The notes below the pieces were generated by a model that was not told the DNA's origin, did no database searches, and worked only from the letters and a program-made list of their open reading frames with translations. Shown one piece after another: positions 977-59,978 of a stretch of 64,000 bases of DNA; the stretch's first letter is position 1, and every line of letters starts with the position of its first letter. The stretch lies in NCBI RefSeq assembly GCF_002198665.1, contig NZ_MWLM01000064.1, positions 20,143 through 84,142 on the forward strand, given 5' to 3'. The position numbers were made by a program, and so were the translations under genes. Origin of the DNA: Novosphingobium sp. B 225 (GTDB taxonomy: Bacteria > Pseudomonadota > Alphaproteobacteria > Sphingomonadales > Sphingomonadaceae).

Positions 977-1621
977 TCAGTCTGCCCGCACCTTTACCTT
1001 GGGGGCAGCAGCACCGCGTCGCATGGTTTCCAGGTATTTGTCCAGCGGCGCTGGTTCCGCCACCGGCCCGCCATGATCGCCCTCGCGCGCCCAGTATTCG
1101 GCGTAGCTGGGGAACAGTTTGTGGAAATTGCCTTCTGCCCAGTCCGTTCCCGGCCAGCGCATCTTGTTGTCACCAATCGGCGGCTGGTTGAGATCGGTGG
1201 CGTACCAGTACAGCGGCAAACGTCGCGCGAAGAACCAACGCCCGTCGGTTCTGACATAGTCATCGACATACATCATCTGCATGATCACCCATTCATCGCC
1301 GGTCTCATGCTCGTTCTTGGAATAGACCACGCCGTGGGCATGATCGGGATCGTCGAATTCGATCACATGTCCGCCGATGTGGTGCGACGTGCCGGTGAAG
1401 GGCGAACGCAGTGTGCGGTCCATGTAGGCGCGCAGGGCGAGCCGGCCCGAGGCGTCCTTGCCCACCCGCACGTCCGCCGGGAACAGGCTGACCATCGCGT
1501 CCATATCGCGCATGTCGAGCGCGAGGGCATATTTGGCCGGGAGCTGCCGGATCGCATCGAGCGATTCCAGCCGGTCGATCCGGGCCAGAAGAGCAGCATC
1601 TGGCAGGGCGGCATCAGTCAT
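977..1621 (-). CDS. SnoaL/NTF2-like protein
   Basis: A 214-residue protein of the SnoaL_4/NTF2-like cone-barrel family. The N-terminus has the usual helix pattern (RLESLDAIRQLPAKYALALD) and the body has alternating strands with HHIGGHVIEF and WVIMQMMYVDDYVR. Proteins of this fold act as isomerases, dehydratases or hydrolases of small hydrophobic ligands, and bile-acid 7-alpha-dehydratases (BaiE type) share it. The start ATG overlaps the stop of the upstream DUF1254 gene by one base (TGATG), so the two are translationally coupled. No catalytic residues can be assigned with confidence. The activity is unknown, but the shared promoter region with a TonB receptor suggests a role in uptake or modification of a hydrophobic substrate. 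Confidence 0.75.
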   Translation of the reverse strand: MTDAALPDAALLARIDRLESLDAIRQLPAKYALALDMRDMDAMVSLFPADVRVGKDASGRLALRAYMDRTLRSPFTGTSHHIGGHVIEFDDPDHAHGVVYSKNEHETGDEWVIMQMMYVDDYVRTDGRWFFARRLPLYWYATDLNQPPIGDNKMRWPGTDWAEGNFHKLFPSYAEYWAREGDHGGPVAEPAPLDKYLETMRRGAAAPKVKVRAD

Positions 1622-2958
1622 CAATCGATCCTTTCGACCGGAGGCAGGGCATAGCTGCCGTCGAGTGCAGCGGCATGGGGCAGGTACAGCCGGGCGACAA
1701 GCGTGAAGCCGCTCGCCGGGACCGGCAGCCAGTTGGAGGTGCCCGCACGCGGGCGGGTGTTTGACAGGGTCAGGCTGAGCGATCCGTCTGCGGCGAACTT
1801 CAGCCCCTTGGTGCGGTCACCAATGGTGTAGCGGTGGATCGCGTTTTCGCTCAGCTGCACCCCTTGCGCGGTATAGGCGGTGATTGACCAGAAGGCGCTA
1901 ACCGGGGGCAGCTGACCCTTGGCAAAGCGGATCCGATAGCGCTTGCTGCCGGTCAGCCACTGGCCCGTGCTGTCTTTGATTGCCGCCGGATAAATCGATT
2001 CCTCGCGCGCGTTGACATAGCCGCCGCGCGCGGCCTCGGCTCGCAGCAGGAAATCGTCGCCCGGGTTGTCCATCGCGCGGGACAACAGCCAGCCGTTGGT
2101 GGTCTGGCTGGGGCGGAACCCCTGGGCTTTCAGCACTTCTGGCCCGATCCGCAGCGCACAGGACAGGCCGAGCTTTTGCGCGGGGCTCAGCTGGTCCGGA
2201 TCGAACCGGGCCGTTGGACCGAAACCGGCGCGGTCAAACTGGGCCATCAGGGCGGTCTCGCCGGGCGTGGCCGGAACGCTGTGCAGCGCCTGATTGAGGA
2301 GGGTGAAAAAGGCCAGACTGTCAAACGGCTGCAGCGGCGCGGCATCGCTCACCGGCTCGCCCGCTGCGCCCTGCATCAGAATCGAACGCGCGATCCGCTG
2401 GGCTGCAGCCTCGTCGCCGGGGTCGCTTACCAACACGCGGCCGAGCATCCAGGCAGTGTCGGTCGGCACATGGAACGCGGTATAACCGGGCGGCACTTCG
2501 CCACCCGACGGGCCGACCAGCGCATACTTCGTCGCCTTGCCACCGTTGGTGCGGGTGCCAAGATGATGCGGCTTGCCGTAGAGGTCCATGAAGGCCAGCG
2601 TGTAATAGCGCGCGCCCAGCGCTGGCACATCCAGCAGCACGGGACCGTGCGACAGATCGAGCCAGGCGTTGAGGTACAGTGTGTCGGAATTGGGCGCGCG
2701 CAACTGGCCTTGCGTCGCCGGGGTCAGCAGGTGCGGATAGACCGCGATCTGATTGACTGGCGCGACCACTGGTTGATCGGCCCGGGTCCGGTGGGTTTCG
2801 TTGAAGCGCTGCTTCAGCAGGTCGACCATGGGGAAGCCATAGATATAGCCCTGCAGGCCCATGCTCTGCGCCAAAGCGGCGGTGGGATCGGTGGCGGCTG
2901 TCTGACATTCGCTGGCCGTGGGCAACGCCGCAGCAGCTGCCAGTGCAATCGTTAGCAT
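1621..2958 (-). CDS. DUF1254/DUF1214 family secreted protein
   Basis: A 445-residue protein with a short signal-like N-terminus (MLTIALAAAAALPTASE). An N-terminal DUF1254 region contains GYIYGFPMVDLLKQ and NSDTLYLNAWLDLS, and a C-terminal DUF1214 region contains SNTRPRAGTSNWLPVP. The biochemical role of this family is not established. It is preceded by a strong purine-rich ribosome site (AAAGGGGGG) and is the first gene of a minus-strand unit divergent from the TonB receptor, with two copies of a 28-bp dyad in the 148-bp gap. A DUF1214 protein next to an NTF2-like gene occurs again at 19587-20675, in the steroid operon, which supports a shared pathway role. Confidence 0.75.
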   Translation of the reverse strand: MLTIALAAAAALPTASECQTAATDPTAALAQSMGLQGYIYGFPMVDLLKQRFNETHRTRADQPVVAPVNQIAVYPHLLTPATQGQLRAPNSDTLYLNAWLDLSHGPVLLDVPALGARYYTLAFMDLYGKPHHLGTRTNGGKATKYALVGPSGGEVPPGYTAFHVPTDTAWMLGRVLVSDPGDEAAAQRIARSILMQGAAGEPVSDAAPLQPFDSLAFFTLLNQALHSVPATPGETALMAQFDRAGFGPTARFDPDQLSPAQKLGLSCALRIGPEVLKAQGFRPSQTTNGWLLSRAMDNPGDDFLLRAEAARGGYVNAREESIYPAAIKDSTGQWLTGSKRYRIRFAKGQLPPVSAFWSITAYTAQGVQLSENAIHRYTIGDRTKGLKFAADGSLSLTLSNTRPRAGTSNWLPVPASGFTLVARLYLPHAAALDGSYALPPVERID

Positions 2959-2970
2959 CGCCCCCCTTTC

Positions 2971-2998
2971 GCGTAATTTGTCTTGATTTGAGCTACGC
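2971..2998. promoter_or_regulatory. 28-bp dyad operator candidate, copy 1
   Basis: GCGTA at 2971-2975 and TACGC at 2994-2998, separated by 18 bases, form an exact inverted repeat. It starts 12 bases upstream of the DUF1254 start codon (minus strand). The same 28-bp layout recurs at 3033-3060 and at 29082-29109. It is probably the binding site of a dimeric regulator, with arm centres 23 bp apart. The regulator is not identified. Confidence 0.55.
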
Positions 2999-3032
2999 TA
3001 TCCAATTTTCAATTGTATCGCAACATGGGTTC

Positions 3033-3060
3033 GCGTAAATGATTGGCATCACGGTTACGC
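3033..3060. promoter_or_regulatory. 28-bp dyad operator candidate, copy 2
   Basis: GCGTAA at 3033-3038 and TTACGC at 3055-3060 form a perfect 6-bp inverted repeat with 16 bases between the arms. This is the best-preserved of the three copies. It lies 46 bases upstream of the TonB receptor start and 62 bases from copy 1. The extended right arm TACGCAAATC is identical to the copy at 29105-29114, between the two steroid operons. Confidence 0.6.
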
Positions 3061-3106: not shown

Positions 3107-5467
3107 ATGACCCGACTGCTTGCATCCACCGCGCTGGCTTCGCTTGGCGCACTGATCGCGGCCCCGGCCCTGGCGCAGGACGCCGCTGCAAATAGCGACA
3201 ATTCCGGGATCGGTGAAATCGTGGTGACCGCGCAAAAACGCGCGGAAAACATCCAGGACGTGCCGATCGCGATTTCGGCGGTGGGCAGCAAGTTTCTCGA
3301 ATCGCGCGGGATCACCTCGATCGACGGGCTCGGTTCGGTTTCTCCCAACGTGAAGATCGAACGTGCGCCTTCGAACAAGACCGCGGCGCAGATTTCGATC
3401 CGCGGTTCGGTGACGATCAATCCGGCGATCACCTGGGAACCGGCAGTGGGGCTCTATCTTGACGGGGTCTATGTCGCCAAGGTTCAGGGTTCGATCTTTG
3501 ACATTGCCGATCTGGAGCGGGTCGAAGTGCTGCGCGGGCCGCAGGGGACGCTCTATGGCCGCAATGCGCTGGCCGGGGCGATCAACCTGGTGACCAAGAA
3601 GCCCAGCGGCGAACTGCACGCCAGCGGCGAAGTCAGCTATGGCAATTACGATTTCTGGCGCGCCAAGGCGGTGCTCGATCTGCCCGCAATCGGCCCGCTC
3701 TCAGTCAAACTCTCGGGCCAGCTGACCAAGCGTGACGGGTTCGTGAAGATCACCCCCAACCCCTATCCCGCCGCTTTCCTCGCTCTGCCCAATTCGGTCA
3801 CCTCGACCAACGATGTCGACGGGCAGAGCTTTATGGCGCAGGTCCGGCTGAAGCCGGAAGGGCCGCTGACGATTGATTATACCTTCGATTACAGCCGCAA
3901 CCGTCAGAAGCCGGACTTTGCCCAGCTCTATTCGGTACTGGGCAACAATCCGGCATCGTTCAACGATCTGTGGACCGATCCGGCGATCCTGGCCGCGATT
4001 GCGCCGCTGGGGCTCTATGCCAGCAAGACCCGCCAGACCACCGGCAGTGTCAACGCCAGCCCGTTGTATGAATATTCCCGTTCGATGGGCCATGCGCTGA
4101 CGATCGGGCTAGATCTCGGTAATGTGACTCTGAAGTCGATCACCGCCTACCGCAAGCTCAAGTGGGAAGACTCGCTCGATCTCGATGGCTCGCCACTTGA
4201 TGTGGCCTTTACCCAGCGCCTGTCGGATTTCCGGGCCTGGAGCCAGGAATTGCAGGCCACCGGTTCGGCGATGGATGACAAGCTGAAGTACGTCCTCGGC
4301 GGGTTCTACTACAACGAAAAGGCGGAAACGTTGGGGCCGCAGTTCTTCTTCGGGTTCCTCAATCAGGTTGCGGCGCCCGGCGCGGCGGTGCTGCAATCGG
4401 ACTATGGCGGGCACACCAAGGCCTATGCCGCCTATGCCCAGATCGATTACCAGCTGGCCGATCCGCTGACCCTGACCCTGGGCGGACGCTATACCCACGA
4501 AAAGAAGGACATTCGCCGCTTCTTCGGGGTGGGCAAGCCGGTGATCCCGCTGTTCAACCTGCCCTATGGCGGCGCGCCCGATGCGACCTTCAACAAGTTC
4601 ACCCCGGCGGTGACGCTGGCCTATGAAGCATCACCTGACGTCAATCTCTATGCCCGCTGGGCGCGTGGCTACAAGTCGGGCGGGTTCAATGGGGAAACCG
4701 ACGTTTCGGGCCTGATCGGCAGCCCGTTCTCGTGCTCTACCGCGCCGGGCAAGGCGAGCGAGCTGTGCAATCCCTATCGGCCCGAGCTGGTTGACAGCTA
4801 TGAAGTCGGGATCAAGGCCCGGCTCGCCGATGGCAAGGTGATCCTCAACCTCGCGGGCTTCTGGGACGAGCACAAGGACATCCAGCTTTCGGTCTTCACC
4901 GCCAAGGGAGCCGCCGCTTCCGAAGTGCGCAATGCGGCCAAGGCGCGGATCCAGGGGCTGGAGCTGGAAACCGTGCTCAAGCCGATCCCGGCGCTGACCA
5001 TCAACGGTTCGATTGCGGTGCTTGACGCCAAGTACAAGAGCTACCTTGATGGCGGCGTCGATGTGTCCAACAACCGGGCCTTCCCGCATACGCCCAAGTT
5101 CACCGCCAACCTGGGGGTCAACTGGGATGTCGTGACCGGCGATTGGGGCAAGTTCAGCCTGATCGGCGATCTCAACCACGTGGGCAAGTACTACACCTTC
5201 CCCTATGCGCTGGTCGGTGATCCCTACACCACCCAGGTCGCGGCCACCACGCAGTCCAAGGGCCGCACCATCATAAACCTGCGCGCGGCGCTGGCGGATG
5301 TTTCGGTGGGCGGGGCGAAGTTCGATATTGCGGCCTGGGTCAAGAATGTGACCAAGGAAAGCAATGCCCAGAACTTCATCGATTTCGGCCCCGGTTTTGG
5401 TGGGCTGACCCTGGCCTATTTCCCCGATCCCCGGACCTATGGTCTGACGATCGGCTTCAAGTACTGA
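3107..5467 (+). CDS. TonB-dependent outer-membrane receptor
   Basis: A 786-residue receptor. It has a signal peptide (MTRLLASTALASLGALIAAP, cut near ALAQ), a TonB-box-like GEIVVTAQKR, a plug domain with the conserved RVEVLRGPQGTLYGRNALAG, and a beta-barrel that ends in the aromatic-terminated strand YGLTIGFKY. Such receptors import large or hydrophobic substrates across the outer membrane using TonB energy. The ligand cannot be read from sequence. The shared dyad with the steroid operons' promoter suggests steroids or a related terpenoid rather than iron. It has a ribosome site (GGGAGGAGAGG) just before the ATG and is followed after 22 bases by an SDR gene, probably in one transcript. Confidence 0.93.
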   Translation: MTRLLASTALASLGALIAAPALAQDAAANSDNSGIGEIVVTAQKRAENIQDVPIAISAVGSKFLESRGITSIDGLGSVSPNVKIERAPSNKTAAQISIRGSVTINPAITWEPAVGLYLDGVYVAKVQGSIFDIADLERVEVLRGPQGTLYGRNALAGAINLVTKKPSGELHASGEVSYGNYDFWRAKAVLDLPAIGPLSVKLSGQLTKRDGFVKITPNPYPAAFLALPNSVTSTNDVDGQSFMAQVRLKPEGPLTIDYTFDYSRNRQKPDFAQLYSVLGNNPASFNDLWTDPAILAAIAPLGLYASKTRQTTGSVNASPLYEYSRSMGHALTIGLDLGNVTLKSITAYRKLKWEDSLDLDGSPLDVAFTQRLSDFRAWSQELQATGSAMDDKLKYVLGGFYYNEKAETLGPQFFFGFLNQVAAPGAAVLQSDYGGHTKAYAAYAQIDYQLADPLTLTLGGRYTHEKKDIRRFFGVGKPVIPLFNLPYGGAPDATFNKFTPAVTLAYEASPDVNLYARWARGYKSGGFNGETDVSGLIGSPFSCSTAPGKASELCNPYRPELVDSYEVGIKARLADGKVILNLAGFWDEHKDIQLSVFTAKGAAASEVRNAAKARIQGLELETVLKPIPALTINGSIAVLDAKYKSYLDGGVDVSNNRAFPHTPKFTANLGVNWDVVTGDWGKFSLIGDLNHVGKYYTFPYALVGDPYTTQVAATTQSKGRTIINLRAALADVSVGGAKFDIAAWVKNVTKESNAQNFIDFGPGFGGLTLAYFPDPRTYGLTIGFKY

Positions 5468-5489
5468 TTGCAGGCAGGGAGAAACAGTG

Positions 5490-6233
5490 ATGCGCCGATT
5501 TGAAGGCAAGAACGTCCTCGTCACCGGGGCGGCATCGGGGATCGGGCGGGCGACCGCGATCCGCTTTGCGGCTGAGGGGGCCAAGGTCACCATCGGCGAT
5601 ATCAACGCGGTCGGCCTTTCCGAAACCGCTGCGATGATGGCCAGCCCCCCGCGTGTGCAGCCGTTTGACGCCAGCGATTTTGCCAGTTGCAAAGCGCTGG
5701 TCGATGCGGCGGCGGCGGACGGGCTGGACGTGGTCTGCAACGTCTCGGGCATGCTCAAATGGGGGCCGAGCCAGGATTTCAGCCTCGATGACTTCGAACG
5801 CATTCTGAAGATCAACACCACCAGCGTCTTCGCGATGTGCCAGGCGGCCTATCCGCATCTGGTCAAAAGCAAGGGCTGCATTGTCAACACCGCCTCTACC
5901 GCAGCGCTTCAGGGCATCGCCTATACCATCGCCTATTCGGCATCGAAGCATGGCGTGGCGGCGATTACCAAGGGGCTGGCGGTGGAATGGGCCAGCAAGG
6001 GCATCCGCATCAATGCGATCTGTCCGGGCCACGTCAACACGCCGATGGGCAATGCCCCGCCGCCGCCGGGGGATGTCGACTGGGCGCTGGTGATGCGCAA
6101 CGCGCCCAAGCTGACCGAGGGCATGTGCGAGCCGGAACATATTGCCGGGCTGTTCGCCTATCTGGCGAGTGACGAGGCTTGCAAGATCACTGGTTCACTG
6201 TTCACGATGGATGGTGGTCAATTGGCCGGTTGA
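5490..6233 (+). CDS. Short-chain dehydrogenase/reductase
   Basis: A 247-residue classical SDR. It has the nucleotide-binding TGAASGIG near residue 12, the active-site serine in NTASTAAL, YSASK as catalytic Tyr-x-x-x-Lys, and a C-terminal GGQLAG. The usual NNAG motif is replaced by CNVSG, an uncommon but tolerated change. It probably oxidises or reduces a hydroxyl/ketone on the substrate brought in by the upstream TonB receptor; hydroxysteroid dehydrogenase activity is an inference from context. The ATG at 5490 was chosen (GGGAG 8 bases upstream); a GTG directly before it at 5487 is an alternative. A strong terminator follows at 6315. Confidence 0.85.
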   Translation: MRRFEGKNVLVTGAASGIGRATAIRFAAEGAKVTIGDINAVGLSETAAMMASPPRVQPFDASDFASCKALVDAAAADGLDVVCNVSGMLKWGPSQDFSLDDFERILKINTTSVFAMCQAAYPHLVKSKGCIVNTASTAALQGIAYTIAYSASKHGVAAITKGLAVEWASKGIRINAICPGHVNTPMGNAPPPPGDVDWALVMRNAPKLTEGMCEPEHIAGLFAYLASDEACKITGSLFTMDGGQLAG

Positions 6234-27809: not shown

Positions 27810-29030
27810 TCAAAGGAAAGTGAATGTCGGCTCTTCGCCGAACATCGAGCCGACCACGTCGCCAAAGCGGTTGTTCGGATCGTTGGCAACGTGCGCGCGG
27901 CCGGCGTTGAGATCGAGCCAGGGCTGGATGATCTCGCTGGTCATGTAGATCGCGCGGCCGCCCAGCTGCTGCATCACATCGTCGATCATCTCGACCAGGC
28001 GGCGCACCACGTTGGACGAATTGTAGGCATAGAGCGCGCGCTTCTCCATCGGAATGGCCTCGCCGCGCTCCGCGTAACCCATCAGGTCTTCAAAGGTGAC
28101 ACGCTGCATCGTTTCCATTTCGATGATCTGCGCATGCGCCTTGGCCATTGCGGCTTGCAGGAACGGATCGGCCTTGCTCGCCTTGCCGGTATTGGTGGAC
28201 ACGCGGCTGGCCATGATGCCCTTCGCCGCATTCAGCGCCGCTTTGGCCCCGCCGAACGCCGCAGTTGAAACCGAACGCACGAATACCTGCGCCCAGGGCA
28301 GGGTATAGAGCGGGCCGGTATTCTCAGCCTGGCCGGGGTTCTGGCACAGGAAACCATCGATTGCGCGGTGGGTGCGGTACTCGGGCACGAACACATCGTT
28401 GACGTGGATGTCATGGCTGCCGGTGCCCTGCAGGCCAAAAGTCTGCCAGGCATCGCGGTCAATCGTATAGTCACTGCGCGGCAGCAGGAAAGTGCGCATG
28501 TCGGGCGGGCCAGAACCGGGCACATCGTCCGGCCAGACCAGCGCGCCCAGCAGCACCCAGCCGCAATGCACCGATCCGGTCGAAAAGCCCCAGTGGCCCG
28601 ACAGGCGGAAGCCGCCTTCGACCGTCTTGACCTGCCCGACCGGCTGATAGGTCGAGCTGACCAGCATGTCGTTGTCATCGGCCCAGACTTCGTCCTGCGC
28701 CTGATCATGGAACAGCGCCATTTCATAAGGGTGGCAGCCCAGCACGCCATACATCCACCCGGTTGACATGCAGCCTTCGGCCAGCGCCTTTTGCACTTCG
28801 AAGAAAGTGTTGGGGTGCATTTCATAGCCGCCCCAGCGTTTCGGCTGGAGGATGCGGAAAAACCCGGCTTGCTTCATTTCGGCGATCGTCTCGTCCGAAA
28901 CGTCGCGATTGGCGGTGGTTGCCTTGGCGCGGGCCTTGAGCGCGGGGATCATCGCGCGGGCACGGGCGACCAGATCGTCATGGGTGGGGATCGCGGCATG
29001 AACCGGATCGGACAAGGCTGCCGTAGCCAT
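27810..29030 (-). CDS. hsaA: Flavin-dependent 3-HSA 4-hydroxylase, oxygenase component
   Basis: A 406-residue acyl-CoA-dehydrogenase-fold monooxygenase of the HsaA/HpaH type: GFFRILQPKRWGGYE, STGWMYGVLGCHPYEMALF, HWGFSTGSVHCGWVLLGAL and TGSHDIHVNDVFVPEYR. It hydroxylates the aromatised ring A (3-HSA to 3,4-DHSA) and needs reduced flavin from a separate reductase (HsaB), which is not encoded in this window. Start at ATG 29030, after GGGAG; longer in-frame starts would run into the divergent promoter. It is the first gene of the long minus-strand operon. Confidence 0.88.
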   Translation of the reverse strand: MATAALSDPVHAAIPTHDDLVARARAMIPALKARAKATTANRDVSDETIAEMKQAGFFRILQPKRWGGYEMHPNTFFEVQKALAEGCMSTGWMYGVLGCHPYEMALFHDQAQDEVWADDNDMLVSSTYQPVGQVKTVEGGFRLSGHWGFSTGSVHCGWVLLGALVWPDDVPGSGPPDMRTFLLPRSDYTIDRDAWQTFGLQGTGSHDIHVNDVFVPEYRTHRAIDGFLCQNPGQAENTGPLYTLPWAQVFVRSVSTAAFGGAKAALNAAKGIMASRVSTNTGKASKADPFLQAAMAKAHAQIIEMETMQRVTFEDLMGYAERGEAIPMEKRALYAYNSSNVVRRLVEMIDDVMQQLGGRAIYMTSEIIQPWLDLNAGRAHVANDPNNRFGDVVGSMFGEEPTFTFL

Positions 29031-29081: not shown

Positions 29082-29109
29082 TCGTAAAAATTTCTGCCAT
29101 GCGATACGC
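29082..29109. promoter_or_regulatory. 28-bp dyad operator candidate, copy 3 (hsaA/SDR divergent promoter)
   Basis: CGTA at 29083-29086 and TACG at 29105-29108 form the inverted core, with TACGC and the flanking TACGCAAATC (29105-29114) identical to the TonB-receptor copy. The 18-base spacing is the same as in both upstream copies. It lies 52 bases from the hsaA start and about 100 bases from the divergent SDR start. Confidence 0.55.
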
Positions 29110-29211: not shown

Positions 29212-29979
29212 TTGAGCGGCAGTTTTGCCATCGATCTGGCCGGACAAGTGGCCGTGGTCACCGGGGGGACCCGGGGGCTGGGGCGTCATATTGCAGCGGC
29301 GCTCGCCGGGGCCGGGGCGCAAGTGGTGGTCTGCGGGCGCAATGCCCCGGCAGACCTGCCGCCCGGCGTCACGTTCTTCGCTGCCGACATTCGTGATGCC
29401 GAACAGGCGAAAGCGCTGGTAGACCATGCAGCAGCGCTGCACGGGCGGCTGGACATTGTGGTCAACAACGCTGGTGGATCGCCCGCTGCTGCTTTCGAAG
29501 CAGCCAGTCCGCGCTTTCTGGACGCGATCCTCAAGCTCAACCTGCAGGCTCCGATGTACATGGCGCAGGCCGCACATCCGCATCTGGTCAAGGCGGGCGG
29601 GGGCAATGTGATCAACATCGCGTCAGTAAGCGGCATCCGCCCGTCGCCCGGCACCGCAGCCTACGGCGCAGCCAAGGCCGGGCTGCTCAATCTGACGCAA
29701 AGCCTGGCGCAGGAATGGGGGCCGCAGGGTGTGCGGGTCAATGCGATCATCGCAGGGCTGATGCAGACCGAAAATGCCGAAGCGACTTATGGCGACGCCG
29801 CGGCGCAGGCGGCCGTCGGCCGTTCCATGCCGCTGCAACGCATGGGGCTGGGATCGGACATAGCCGGGGCCGTGCTGTGGCTGTGCAGCGATGCCGCCGC
29901 GTGGGTCAGCGGTGCACGTATCAACGTCGATGGCGGGGGAGAACGACCGTACTTCCTCGACCTCGTGAAAGGGGAGTAA
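29212..29979 (+). CDS. Short-chain dehydrogenase/reductase, first gene of C/D-ring operon
   Basis: A 255-residue SDR: VTGGTRGLG (residues 17-25), VVNNAGG, Ser in INIASVSG, YGAAK catalytic pair and a C-terminal INVDGGGERP. The start codon is TTG at 29212, with GGGGAGAG 7 bases upstream; an earlier in-frame ATG would begin inside the divergent promoter. It may correspond to one of the SDRs of the actinobacterial HIP cluster (Rv3549c-like), but this match is uncertain. It is 4 bases from hsaC, whose ribosome site overlaps its stop. Confidence 0.83.
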   Translation: MSGSFAIDLAGQVAVVTGGTRGLGRHIAAALAGAGAQVVVCGRNAPADLPPGVTFFAADIRDAEQAKALVDHAAALHGRLDIVVNNAGGSPAAAFEAASPRFLDAILKLNLQAPMYMAQAAHPHLVKAGGGNVINIASVSGIRPSPGTAAYGAAKAGLLNLTQSLAQEWGPQGVRVNAIIAGLMQTENAEATYGDAAAQAAVGRSMPLQRMGLGSDIAGAVLWLCSDAAAWVSGARINVDGGGERPYFLDLVKGE

Positions 29980-50721: not shown

Positions 50722-52191
50722 ATGGCGAATGAACCGCGCAAGCTGCGTTACGCAATCATCGGTGCGGGGATGGCCGGGATCCTGGCGGGCATCAAGCTGA
50801 AGGAGCGCGGCGAGGCGTTCACGATCTATGAAAAAGCCGCCAAGCTGGGCGGCACCTGGCGCGAGAACCGCTATCCGGGGCTGACCTGCGACGTGCCGGC
50901 GCATGCCTATACCTATTCGTTCGAACCCTGGGCGGAATGGGACGCGTACTATTCCACCGGGGCGCAGATCCAGACCTATTTCGAGCACGTTGCGGACAAG
51001 TACGAGATCATGCCCTCGATCCGGTTCGGGCATGAAGTGACCGCCGCCGTGTTCGACGATGACACTGCCGTTTGGACACTGACCTTTGGCAATGGCGAGA
51101 CGGCGGAAGCTGACGTGGTGATCGCTGCCTCGGGCGTGCTGCACCACCCCAGGCTGCCGGACATTGCGGGGCTCGATACGTTCAAGGGCCCGGCGTTCCA
51201 CACCGCCCGCTGGGACGACACTGCGCCGATCGCAGGCGCGCGGGTCGGGCTGATCGGGTGCGGTTCGACCGGGATCCAGATCGTCACTGCGCTGGCGGGC
51301 AAAGTGGACAAGCTGGTCCATTTCCAGCGCTCGCCGCAATGGGTCATGCCGGTGCCGCAGTTCCCCTATACCGATGATGAGCGCGCGGCGTTCCGTCAGG
51401 ACCCGGCGCTGATCGATGCGATCCGGTACAACGAGGAATACATCGGGGCGATCAAACGCTTCACTGACGGGATCACCGATATTGACGGCCCGCAAATGAA
51501 GATGATCGAGGACGCCTGCCTGCAGAACCTCGAAAATTCGATCCGTGATCCGGAGCTTAAGGAAAAACTGCGCCCCAATTACCGCGCGGCGTGCAAGCGG
51601 CTGATCTATTCGTGGAACTATTACGAGCAGGTGCAGGACCCGACGGTTTACGTCGAAACCGGCGGGATTGAGCGGATCGAGCCGGCCGGCGTGCGGATGA
51701 AGGACGGCACGTTCCACGAACTCGACACCTTGGTGCTCGCCACCGGCTTCCGCGCCGACCGGTTCATCCGCCCAGCGGTGGTGACCGGGGCGGGCGGGGT
51801 CAGCCTTGATGATTTCTGGGCAGTGCGCCCGCGCGCGCATTACGCCATGACCATGCCGGGCTTTCCTAACCTGTTCATGCTCAACGGCCCGACCGGCCCG
51901 GTCGGCAATTTCTCGCTGATCGATATCGCCGAGCGGCAGTGGGAATATATCGACCAGTTGCTCGACCAGCTGCGCAGCGGCGCGGCGCGCAAGGTAGAGC
52001 CCAGGGCAGAAGCCTTTGAGGACTATGAAACCCGCCGCATCGCCGCGGCCAAGACCACGATCTTCGGATCGGGCTGCAACTCGTGGTATCTCGACGGCGA
52101 GGGCGTGCCCGCCAGTTGGCCGTGGTCCTATGATGCATTTGCCGAAGCCATGACCAAGCCGGTGCTGAGCGAGTTTGAACTGGCGGCCTAA
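50722..52191 (+). CDS. Baeyer-Villiger-type flavin monooxygenase
   Basis: A 489-residue class B flavoprotein. It has the FAD motif AIIGAGMAGILAGIKL, the diagnostic BVMO fingerprint FKGPAFHTARW (F-x-G-x3-H-x3-W), the NADPH motif LIGCGSTGIQIV, and LATGFRADRF. Such enzymes insert oxygen next to a ketone; a steroid ketone (for example C17) or side-chain ketone is a reasonable but unproven substrate. AGAGGAA precedes the ATG. The 3' end overlaps the convergent luxR-type gene by four bases. Confidence 0.87.
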   Translation: MANEPRKLRYAIIGAGMAGILAGIKLKERGEAFTIYEKAAKLGGTWRENRYPGLTCDVPAHAYTYSFEPWAEWDAYYSTGAQIQTYFEHVADKYEIMPSIRFGHEVTAAVFDDDTAVWTLTFGNGETAEADVVIAASGVLHHPRLPDIAGLDTFKGPAFHTARWDDTAPIAGARVGLIGCGSTGIQIVTALAGKVDKLVHFQRSPQWVMPVPQFPYTDDERAAFRQDPALIDAIRYNEEYIGAIKRFTDGITDIDGPQMKMIEDACLQNLENSIRDPELKEKLRPNYRAACKRLIYSWNYYEQVQDPTVYVETGGIERIEPAGVRMKDGTFHELDTLVLATGFRADRFIRPAVVTGAGGVSLDDFWAVRPRAHYAMTMPGFPNLFMLNGPTGPVGNFSLIDIAERQWEYIDQLLDQLRSGAARKVEPRAEAFEDYETRRIAAAKTTIFGSGCNSWYLDGEGVPASWPWSYDAFAEAMTKPVLSEFELAA

Positions 52192-53264
52192 CCGCTCAGC
52201 GCGCCCAGCAGGTTCACCAGCTGCGCCTGCCGGTGGACCTGGGTCTTGGCGAAGATCGAGCGGAGCTGGGCTTTGGCGGTGTTGTGCGCCACGCCCAGCC
52301 GCCGCGCGGCTTCGACCAGTGAATGGCCTTGTGCCAGCACCGCGCACAGCTTTGCCTCGGCTGGAGTCACACCCAGCAGTTCGCGGATCGTATCGGGTTC
52401 CAGCACCAGATCGTTGCCCGGCCGCGCGAGGAACAGCGCCAGCGCGCCGGTGCCGCTGTGAATCGCGGGCAGATCGATCGCACGGGCGGTCGCGACCAGA
52501 TCGCCACGTTCGGGGCGGGGGACACGAAAGCGGGTGACACTGTCTGCCGCCTCGCCCGACTGGAGCAGATGCTCGATCTTCTTGCGCAAGGCGGCGCTGG
52601 CAAAGCGGACTTCGTCCCCGGCCCGGCGCAGCCCTTCGCCTTCGCTCAGAATGCGGTCGGCCAGGGCATTGCTGCTGACCAGGCGGCATTGCCGGTCAAG
52701 CACCAGCAAGGCCAACCCCAGCCCGTCAGTGGCGCTGCGCAACAGGGCGTGTTCGGCCCATGCGAACTGCTGCTTTTCGAACAGCGAGACCGCGATCCGC
52801 AGGTGTGGGACCAGCTCCTGAAACCGCGCGCGGTCTTCGGCGGTGAATTCAGACATGTCCTGGGTGCGGGTAGTGCGGAACCGGGCTTCGAACTGGCCGG
52901 AAAAGCGCAGATCCACCCCCAGCACCTGCTCCCCGCCGGTCAGCGCGAGGTATTCGCGGTAGGCTGCGAAGCGTTGTGGGTCTTGCCCGGCCATGAACTC
53001 GCCAAAGCTGGTGACTTTGCCTTCGGGCAGGCCCTGAAACGGATCACTGGCGAAGTAGCTTTCTATGTAGCTGGCGCTGAATCGGGGATCGGCGCCGGGG
53101 GTCACGAATGTCCCCGGCTGCGCCCGCCCGGGCGAAGTGATGATCAGCGTGGCGAAAGCGGTCCCCAGCCACCCGGTCAGCGCCTTCAGGAACGCTTCCC
53201 ACGGACGTTCGGCATCGATCCCGTCATAGAGGTGGGCGAGCAGGTCTGAAAACCGGGGGTCCAT
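52188..53264 (-). CDS. LuxR-family transcriptional regulator
   Basis: A 358-residue regulator with a long N-terminal sensor-like part (AFATLIITSPGRAQPGTF, FQELVPHLRIAVSLFEKQ) and a C-terminal LuxR HTH: VTPAEAKLCAVLAQGHSLVE, AARRLGVAHNTAKAQLRSIF. There is no receiver Asp motif and no acyl-homoserine-lactone domain that I recognise. A dyad (53274-53291) lies 9 bases before its ATG, suggesting autoregulation, with further copies at two flanking promoters. It is paralogous to the regulator at 59028-59978. Confidence 0.87.
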   Translation of the reverse strand: MDPRFSDLLAHLYDGIDAERPWEAFLKALTGWLGTAFATLIITSPGRAQPGTFVTPGADPRFSASYIESYFASDPFQGLPEGKVTSFGEFMAGQDPQRFAAYREYLALTGGEQVLGVDLRFSGQFEARFRTTRTQDMSEFTAEDRARFQELVPHLRIAVSLFEKQQFAWAEHALLRSATDGLGLALLVLDRQCRLVSSNALADRILSEGEGLRRAGDEVRFASAALRKKIEHLLQSGEAADSVTRFRVPRPERGDLVATARAIDLPAIHSGTGALALFLARPGNDLVLEPDTIRELLGVTPAEAKLCAVLAQGHSLVEAARRLGVAHNTAKAQLRSIFAKTQVHRQAQLVNLLGALSG

Positions 53265-59027: not shown

Positions 59028-59978
59028 TCATCCGCTGAGCGAGGCGACCGAACCCAGCAGCAGCAGCGCCAGTTCACTTTGCCGGGCGACCCCGGTCTTG
59101 CGGAACACGGCCTGCAACTGACTGCGCGCGGTGTTGCGGCTGATGTCGAGTGCAGCGGCGGCATCGTCGAGCGTCAGGCCCTTGGCCAGCTCGCTCGCCA
59201 GCGCGGCCTCCGCTGGGGTCAGTTCGAACAGTTCGGCCAGGGTCTCGGGCGACAGGCTGGACCGGCGCGCGGGATCGCGCACGATCAGAATCGCACTGCG
59301 CTGGAGCGGTTCGTTGACCGGTTCGTAAGCCGGGCCGGGGCGGACCAGCACGGTCAGCGACGCGCCGTGATCGGCGCGGGGCAGGGCGAGCGGGGCGAAC
59401 AGTCCGCGGGTGGAAGTGGCGCGCTGCTCTCCGGCAAAGTGGCGCACCAGTTCGATCAGCCGCGCTGTGGTGCGCGGATCGGTGCAGGCGATCCGGCCGT
59501 GGTGCAGCGACAGCCCATCCTGGCGCGCGAGCAACGCACGGGCGAGCGGGTTGGCGTAGAGTAGCTGCCCCGCCGGATCGAGCGCCAGCACGGCGAGATC
59601 CCCGGCCTCTGCCGCCGCGCCCAGGATGCCTTGTTCGCGCAGCACTTCGGCCTGATCCAGCAGCAGCGCGACGCCGGCATCGAGCAGCGGCTTCAGCGCG
59701 TCCAGACGCCGCTGCGCCTCTGGCGGGAAGGCCGGGTTGCCGCGCCACAAGCCCAGTTCCGCGCCGGTCAGGGTCAGGGCAAGAACCTGTCCGTCGAGCC
59801 CCGGCGTGCCGTGCGAGAACGCCATTGCCGGTCCGCCGCCGGTGGGTGGATCGAAAGTGAGATGAACGTGGTCTGCCCCGAACCGCCGGGCCAGTTCGCG
59901 CAACAGGCCCTGCCACATCGGCCGTTCGGCGAACCCGCCGAGCAGCGCGAGCGACAGGGCCTGCCAGTCGTCTGTCAT
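59028..59978 (-). CDS. LuxR-family transcriptional regulator
   Basis: A 316-residue LuxR-type regulator: a sensor-like N-terminus (GADHVHLTFDPPTGGGPAMA, LALDPAGQLLYANPLARALL resembling a PAS core) and a C-terminal HTH (LTPAEAALASELAKGLTLDD, AAAALDISRNTARSQLQAVF). It is related in sequence to the regulator at 52188-53264. Its start overlaps the LuxC-like stop (ATGA), so it is produced with luxE-luxC and probably controls that unit. Its stop directly abuts the convergent sulfatase stop. Confidence 0.86.
   Translation of the reverse strand: MTDDWQALSLALLGGFAERPMWQGLLRELARRFGADHVHLTFDPPTGGGPAMAFSHGTPGLDGQVLALTLTGAELGLWRGNPAFPPEAQRRLDALKPLLDAGVALLLDQAEVLREQGILGAAAEAGDLAVLALDPAGQLLYANPLARALLARQDGLSLHHGRIACTDPRTTARLIELVRHFAGEQRATSTRGLFAPLALPRADHGASLTVLVRPGPAYEPVNEPLQRSAILIVRDPARRSSLSPETLAELFELTPAEAALASELAKGLTLDDAAAALDISRNTARSQLQAVFRKTGVARQSELALLLLGSVASLSG

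Follow-up and report, generated by a model that had tools for sequence, protein, structure and literature searches.

A conserved 28-bp dyad is a predicted operator of steroid uptake and catabolism genes in Sphingomonadales, with a tandem Lrp/AsnC gene pair as candidate regulator

A 28-bp dyad of the form GCGTA-N18-TACGC is a conserved predicted operator of a steroid uptake-and-catabolism regulon in Sphingomonadales, recurring at the same kinds of gene in related genomes. From sequence comparison, the dyads are likely to be the operators of a single regulon that takes in TonB-dependent uptake and ring catabolism (KshA, HsaA-, HsaB- and HsaC-like proteins, SDRs), most likely run by a tandem pair of Lrp/AsnC genes.

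Dyads in the window and in the genome

The window, the whole 64-kb stretch of DNA analysed here, spans C61:20143-84142 in a genome of 3.71 Mb and 73 contigs. The initial annotation had described three copies of the dyad with identical spacing, and re-reading of the window confirmed the sequence and position of each. The dyads, with their scores in a position matrix, and the genes beside them are as follows.

2971-2998: dyad 1 (GCGTA-N18-TACGC), GCGTAATTTGTCTTGATTTGAGCTACGC, in the DUF1254/TonB gap; matrix score 29.6
3033-3060: dyad 2, GCGTAAATGATTGGCATCACGGTTACGC, 46 bp before the TonB ATG; matrix score 26.1
29082-29109: dyad 3 (TCGTA-N18-TACGC), TCGTAAAAATTTCTGCCATGCGATACGC, between divergent hsaA and SDR genes; matrix score 25.2
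1621..2958, minus strand: DUF1254/DUF1214 protein, predicted divergent target of dyads 1 and 2
3107..5467, plus strand: TonB-dependent outer-membrane receptor (Pfam TonB_dep_Rec_b-barrel and Plug), predicted target of dyads 1 and 2, candidate steroid importer
5487..6233, plus strand: SDR (short-chain dehydrogenase), just 3' of the TonB gene
27810..29030, minus strand: HsaA-like flavin monooxygenase, first gene left of dyad 3
29212..29979, plus strand: SDR, first gene right of dyad 3

CGTA-N18-TACGC gives five strand-matches at three places in the window, against 0.12 +/- 0.36 expected from 100 shuffles. When up to two mismatches are allowed, the window holds 19 matches for 23.3 expected, a count at chance level; hence only near-perfect copies carry signal. 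With the position matrix, built from other loci, dyads 1-3 are the only window matches of at least 7 bits, in agreement with the earlier claim that the sites are confined to the TonB/DUF1254 and hsaA/SDR gaps. Dyads 2 and 3 have TACGCAAATC in common. Dyads 1 and 2 lie 62 bp apart, start to start, as they do at the homologous promoter of G004 (L052), where the divergent DUF1254/TonB arrangement recurs. A sigma-70 consensus scan of the DUF1254/TonB gap found one promoter-like site, on the minus strand, and none on the plus strand. The SDR gene at 5487..6233 is probably on one transcript with the TonB gene; in L173, L176, L177, L178 and L179, too, the TonB gene is followed by an SDR-like gene (by sequence start). 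The best NCBIfam match of the 27810..29030 product is HsaA, at 356 bits, under that model's 450-bit cut-off.

Genome-wide, CGTA-N18-TACG occurs at 12 places and the same pattern read backwards at 46. Six of the 12 are gaps beside steroid genes:

C61:23113 and C61:23175: DUF1254/TonB gap
C61:49224: hsaA/SDR
C61:10288: SDR/SDR
C25:71395: upstream of kshA, whose product is a Rieske protein with a KshA_C match of 179.9 bits
C55:47103: flavin reductase (hsaB) / HsaC-like dioxygenase (hsaC), then an HsaA-like protein and a second KshA

The remaining places lie inside ORFs as drawn by a simple gene caller (L001, L004, L006, L012), read as coding by eye (L003, VVIDTRNDYE) or abut an ORF start and have a GC-rich core (L011). 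The scan was extended to copies of GCGTA-N18-TACGC with up to one mismatch, of which there are 29 in the genome: six score at least 17 bits with the matrix from other loci, the next reaches 9.5, and all six adjoin steroid genes. The other one-mismatch places, with scores below 10, were rejected as operators. The genome-wide scan that the initial annotation had proposed thus returned six steroid promoters apart from low-scoring matches, and its prediction of one regulator for uptake and catabolism is supported on the sequence side: the dyad precedes kshA, hsaB/hsaC, hsaA, SDR and TonB genes here, and KshA, TonB, SDR, OYE, HsaC and HsaA genes in relatives. The dyad can serve as a rule for listing steroid genes genome-wide.

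Conservation of the dyad and its neighbours

Four genomes of the same genus (G001, G003, G004, G007) carry exact dyads at KshA, HsaC-like, HsaA-like, OYE, SDR and TonB promoters. A perfect site is present in 21 of 41 genomes; the sites of G000, G001, G003, G004 and, in part, G007 were inspected, and many of the others have GC-rich cores by eye. For a broader sample, 80 named loci were fetched with an alignment of the first Lrp/AsnC protein (1.40 Mb in total; Novosphingobium, Sphingobium, Sphingomonas, Sphingopyxis, Sphingorhabdus, Croceicoccus, Chakrabartia and others). CGTA-Nx-TACG occurs in these loci 110 times at x = 18 and 0-7 times at each other x from 10 to 30; for the longer GCGTA-Nx-TACGC the figures are 70 at x = 18 and 0 or 1 at other spacings. 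All but five of the 110 N18 sites (105) are intergenic. At least one of them is found in 64 of the 80 loci, and 13 of the remaining 16 loci have a matrix match of at least 8 bits. The two-mismatch count in the window, equal to chance, is what would be expected if the dyads were matches of chance or composition, without function; a maximum of 7 at any other spacing, the intergenic placement and the gap in the own-genome scores speak against that origin, which we regard as refuted by spacing specificity and placement and whose probability we put close to nil.

The matrix was built from the 105 intergenic sites, 101 after removal of identical cores; it has half-sites WTWTGCGTAAWW and a spacer of 70% A+T. 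At 14 bits or more it finds 214 sites in the loci and 8 in the reversed sequence, the training set of 101 being among these sites. We clustered the neighbours of 117 unique dyads from the 80 loci, relatives' regions and the own genome, taking gene positions from a simple ORF caller and cluster names from Pfam scans of representatives or homologues, or from the sequence start. KshA stands beside the dyad in 32 loci, a TonB receptor in 19, an SDR in 12 and an OYE-type flavoprotein in 9; there follow further SDRs (7 and 7), HsaC-like proteins (5), the TonB group of the window (4), the Lrp/AsnC pair (4), HsaA-like proteins (4), CoA-ligase-like proteins (4, by sequence start) and an FAD-binding protein (3). 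Singletons made up 29 of the 43 neighbour clusters in an earlier clustering of 124 sites, from which dyads well within ORFs of more than 150 aa had been removed and in which some genomes were counted twice. One dyad of G004 (L053 9167, C8:49166) has a non-steroid context, between a fatty-acid desaturase and a weak acetyltransferase match.

A tandem Lrp/AsnC pair as candidate regulator

Beside the kshA dyad, on another contig than the window, lie two Lrp/AsnC genes:

C25:72224-72712, and the gene just upstream of it: Lrp/AsnC pair beside the kshA dyad
L062, 10221-10712 and 10728-11210, minus strand: the same C25 pair in the numbering of locus L062

We consider it likely, from the sequence comparisons that follow, that this pair is the regulator of the dyads. 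The two proteins match HTH_AsnC-type at 52.8 and 56.6 bits (cut-off 27) and AsnC_trans_reg, the C-terminal ligand-binding RAM domain, at 41.2 and 51.8 bits (cut-off 25), and there are Lrp-type relatives in the PDB. The first gene was scored in 79 loci, and in 75 of these the second stands in tandem with it; measured between longest ORFs, the median gap is -3 bp. In 55 of the 79 loci a dyad of at least 14 bits overlaps the stop codon of the pair or follows the pair by no more than 150 bp, and three of these loci have another within 150 bp upstream; in 18 every dyad of that strength is more distant, and the last six lack one. Dyads stand at the pair's own promoter in L106, L108 and L140 (= G007), and before the OYE gene that heads the pair's operon in L054 (= L089), L070 and L071, a placement that suits autoregulation.

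Because the 80 loci were chosen by their Lrp gene, linkage inside them is conditioned on it, and co-occurrence was examined anew in 119 genomes of the genus, a set independent of Lrp selection, although some genomes are in both sets and relatives are not independent samples. The first Lrp/AsnC gene is present in 28 of the 119 and the second in 27, all among the same 28; in the exception, G114, the first gene is at contig ends. KshA above 170 bits, a threshold set after the scores were seen, is found in 26 genomes, all with the first Lrp/AsnC gene; the two genomes with that gene and no such KshA are G067 (63% complete) and G090, and in 15 genomes without it KshA_C matches are weaker, with scores of 150-166 bits in six. 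The 28 genomes with the first gene hold on average 2.71 perfect GCGTA-N18-TACGC sites, the 91 without it 0.70 (Mann-Whitney p ~1e-9, relatedness ignored), and among the 75 of 140 sites listed the core is AT-rich in 28 of 46 with the gene against 2 of 29 without. G018 and G024 have no perfect site despite their Lrp/AsnC gene.

The TonB receptor of the window follows the same distribution. Counting the own genome, 24 of the 119 have an orthologue (58-68% identity in the 23 others), and all 24 belong to the 28 with the Lrp/AsnC gene, and the sole match at E <= 1e-120 in the 91 genomes without that gene is a protein of 44% identity in G047 (Fisher p ~2e-21, with G047 set aside and relatedness ignored). 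A dyad of at least 10 bits precedes the TonB gene in 8 of 10 loci, own included, L172 and L173 having none. The earlier suggestion that this receptor is a candidate steroid importer gains support from both observations, and a role in steroid import is plausible because EdcT, another TonB receptor, has experimental support as an estrogen importer in N. tardaugens (PMC7793797). With the second, larger TonB group there are two dyad-linked receptor groups to consider as candidate importers.

The same steroid regulon might instead be controlled through the dyad by an AraC-, TetR- or LuxR-type factor, the Lrp/AsnC pair merely travelling with the kshA cluster. An AraC-family gene (L013 7866-8816) does lie 1.5-2.4 kb from the SDR/SDR dyad, in the gene run behind it, yet its relatives above 230 bits are confined to 10 of the 119 genomes, counting its own. 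All 10 have the Lrp gene, but 18 of the 28 Lrp-gene genomes, the dyad-rich G004, G112 and G115 among them, lack such a relative; on that absence the AraC gene was rejected as dyad regulator. The window itself has two possible LuxR-like single genes, at 52188-53264 (no Pfam match) and 59028-59978 (weak GerE match). The latter is the LuxR candidate for the dyad, but in the genus sample it has merely partial relatives, of at most 44% identity, in six other genomes, and we rejected it as not conserved with the dyad. For TetR, genes of that look (by eye) come after a dyad in L101 and perhaps in L067, and the published estrogen regulator EdcR is a TetR protein (PMC8700777); a search of the window for the EdcR operator, TnnCnnTACnAnTnGTAnnGnnA, that tolerated one mismatch gave no match, and this operator was rejected as the identity of the dyad. 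Given also that in most loci the dyad sits directly beside the Lrp/AsnC pair (55 of 79), we think a regulator from one of these other families unlikely.

A second, more distant tandem Lrp/AsnC pair (~180-211 bits) is present in four genomes on the contig of the main pair, and perhaps regulates another steroid branch:

G007 C12:113295-114232: second Lrp/AsnC pair
G095 C86:51118-52055: second Lrp/AsnC pair
G112 C4:277626-278587: second Lrp/AsnC pair
G123 C31:377266-378206: second Lrp/AsnC pair

The Sphingobium loci carry a variant of the half-site. In Chol11, S. vermicomposti and S. estronivorans the dyad just downstream of the Lrp/AsnC pair has CGGA/TCCG half-sites with N18 kept (CGGA-N18-TCCG; L135 for Chol11, L132, L126). 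The recognition helix reads NEGTVR in place of TEGTVR in L126, L132, L133, L135, L136 and L137. Its change in step with that from CGTA to CGGA is suggestive, with L133, where the helix has changed from T to N and CGTA is kept, as an exception. CGGAW-N16-WTCCG matches the Chol11 genome at 36 places, and the backward pattern does so at 30; when the 36 are ranked by A+T in the core, the first three (14-17 of 18; the fourth has 12) all lie on contig C6 near the pair, one of them, at 235418, being inside an ORF of unassigned function and giving no matrix match. The Chol11 CGGA dyad precedes an acyl-CoA-dehydrogenase-like gene (by sequence start).

Promoter architecture, proposed mechanism and known regulators

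At a class of promoters the predicted operator overlaps a -35-like element: among 101 unique sites read in both orientations there are 18 cases of TTGAC at dyad position 12. In this class, that of relatives' TonB promoters, the right half-site would therefore come between -35 and -10, and the accompanying -10 elements are weak. In the window, dyad 1 carries TTGATT (2983-2988) at this position. The placement of TTGAC favours repression by occlusion, and on balance we incline to the pair repressing rather than activating. As an activator or dual regulator, it would activate from dyads upstream of kshA and repress from those over the -35. The strong kshA dyad, ~100 bp before the gene start, lies upstream of a plausible promoter and so would also suit an activator, with a weaker copy ~63 bp on in some loci. 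At the relatives' TonB promoters, however, TTGAC is inside the dyad, where a bound protein would block polymerase, and a TTGCC -35-like element (by eye) lies under the weaker kshA dyad as well; activation or dual control is, in our judgement, a doubtful alternative to repression. By eye, kshA leaders (e.g. from L073 10498 to the kshA ATG) show a recurring TTGCC-N17-CTATTG-like promoter, and the weaker dyad over it is ~63 bp downstream of the strong one.

This spacing is frequent. Secondary dyads lie 62-64 bp away in 16 of the 29 relaxed matches within 27-150 bp of the 117 unique dyads, and in 13 of 21 matrix matches of at least 2 bits, counts in which a pair of listed dyads enters twice, once for each member, and in which related promoters are not independent samples; the TonB promoters of the window and of G004, kshA, the second TonB group and others contribute. 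The half-site WTWTGCGTAAWW is itself a rough palindrome, for which reason we propose two Lrp dimers per dyad, and half-sites stand 24 bp apart (2.3 turns). The recurrence of 62-64 bp together with the enclosed -35-like TTGAC suggests repression by a multimer.

In the mechanism that we propose, two Lrp dimers would bind one dyad, 24 bp apart; dyads 62-64 bp, or about six helical turns, apart would be bridged or wrapped by a multimer; the bound multimer would cover the -35 region and repress transcription; and a steroid or steroid-CoA intermediate would change the multimer, ending repression. For the bridging multimer and the steroid-derived ligand the chances seem to us about even. More speculatively still, a pair of Lrp/AsnC paralogues might have been recruited from amino-acid to steroid sensing, its mixed multimer wrapping paired dyads six turns apart and acting as master repressor across Sphingomonadales, with CGTA shifted to CGGA in Sphingobium.

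The dyad and the Lrp/AsnC pair supply a concrete operator and a concrete candidate regulator for steroid genes; the dyad might also be built into biosensors that respond to steroids, or serve to mark steroid degraders in metagenomic data. The KstR regulon likewise has a single dispersed palindromic operator for its uptake and ring-degradation genes. A KstR-type operator, which we take to have the form TnnAACnnGTTnnA, has one match in the window, inside a gene, with 0.20 expected; at this chance level the KstR operator was rejected as the identity of the dyad. The statement in the initial annotation that the window holds no KstR-type gene is consistent with the scans for the KstR and EdcR operators and with the search for relatives of the Lrp/AsnC pair, which found none in the window, L013, L014 or L061. 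The KstR regulon works alike but differs in its operator, in a regulator of TetR rather than Lrp/AsnC type, and in governing cholesterol catabolism in actinobacteria, whereas the regulon described here is alphaproteobacterial.

KstR and KstR2 are TetR repressors whose regulons control the steroid-degradation pathway (PMC8700777). EdcR, the TetR estrogen repressor of Caenibius tardaugens, recognises a palindrome over promoters, and the edc cluster under its control includes the TonB-receptor gene edcT (PMC8700777, PMC7793797). Like our candidate, EdcR is a sphingomonad steroid regulator; unlike it, EdcR governs an estrogen-specific upper pathway, from another operator. TeiR/TesR of Comamonas testosteroni, a LuxR-type regulator of steroid catabolism (PMC6895838), is also proteobacterial, but is an activator of another family.

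Two contiguous Lrp/AsnC genes, NCHOL11_RS15865/15860, were noted in the bile-salt cluster of Chol11 in 2026 (PMC12882949), with a suggested role in amino-acid metabolism and, in the parts of that paper covered here, no operator. To judge by the cluster description, they are very probably the pair of L135, with the dyad just downstream. In the open-licence literature searched we found no description of this operator or of the role of the Lrp/AsnC pair. Known ligands of Lrp/AsnC proteins are mostly amino acids. Lysine, arginine, leucine and others are named in a review of the family, which describes Lrp-type sites as imperfect inverted repeats of 13-17 bp in helically phased clusters two or three turns apart, and multimers with DNA wrapped round them (PMC2995911). 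The half-sites of the dyad, about two turns apart, and the paired dyads, about six turns apart, resemble such clusters, and local regulators of the family, such as FL11 and Ss-LrpB, share with the candidate pair the HTH and RAM domains and perhaps the clustered, phased imperfect palindromes. What sets the present system apart from known Lrp/AsnC regulators is its strict 28-bp dyad, its adjacent paralogue pair and the predicted steroid regulon.
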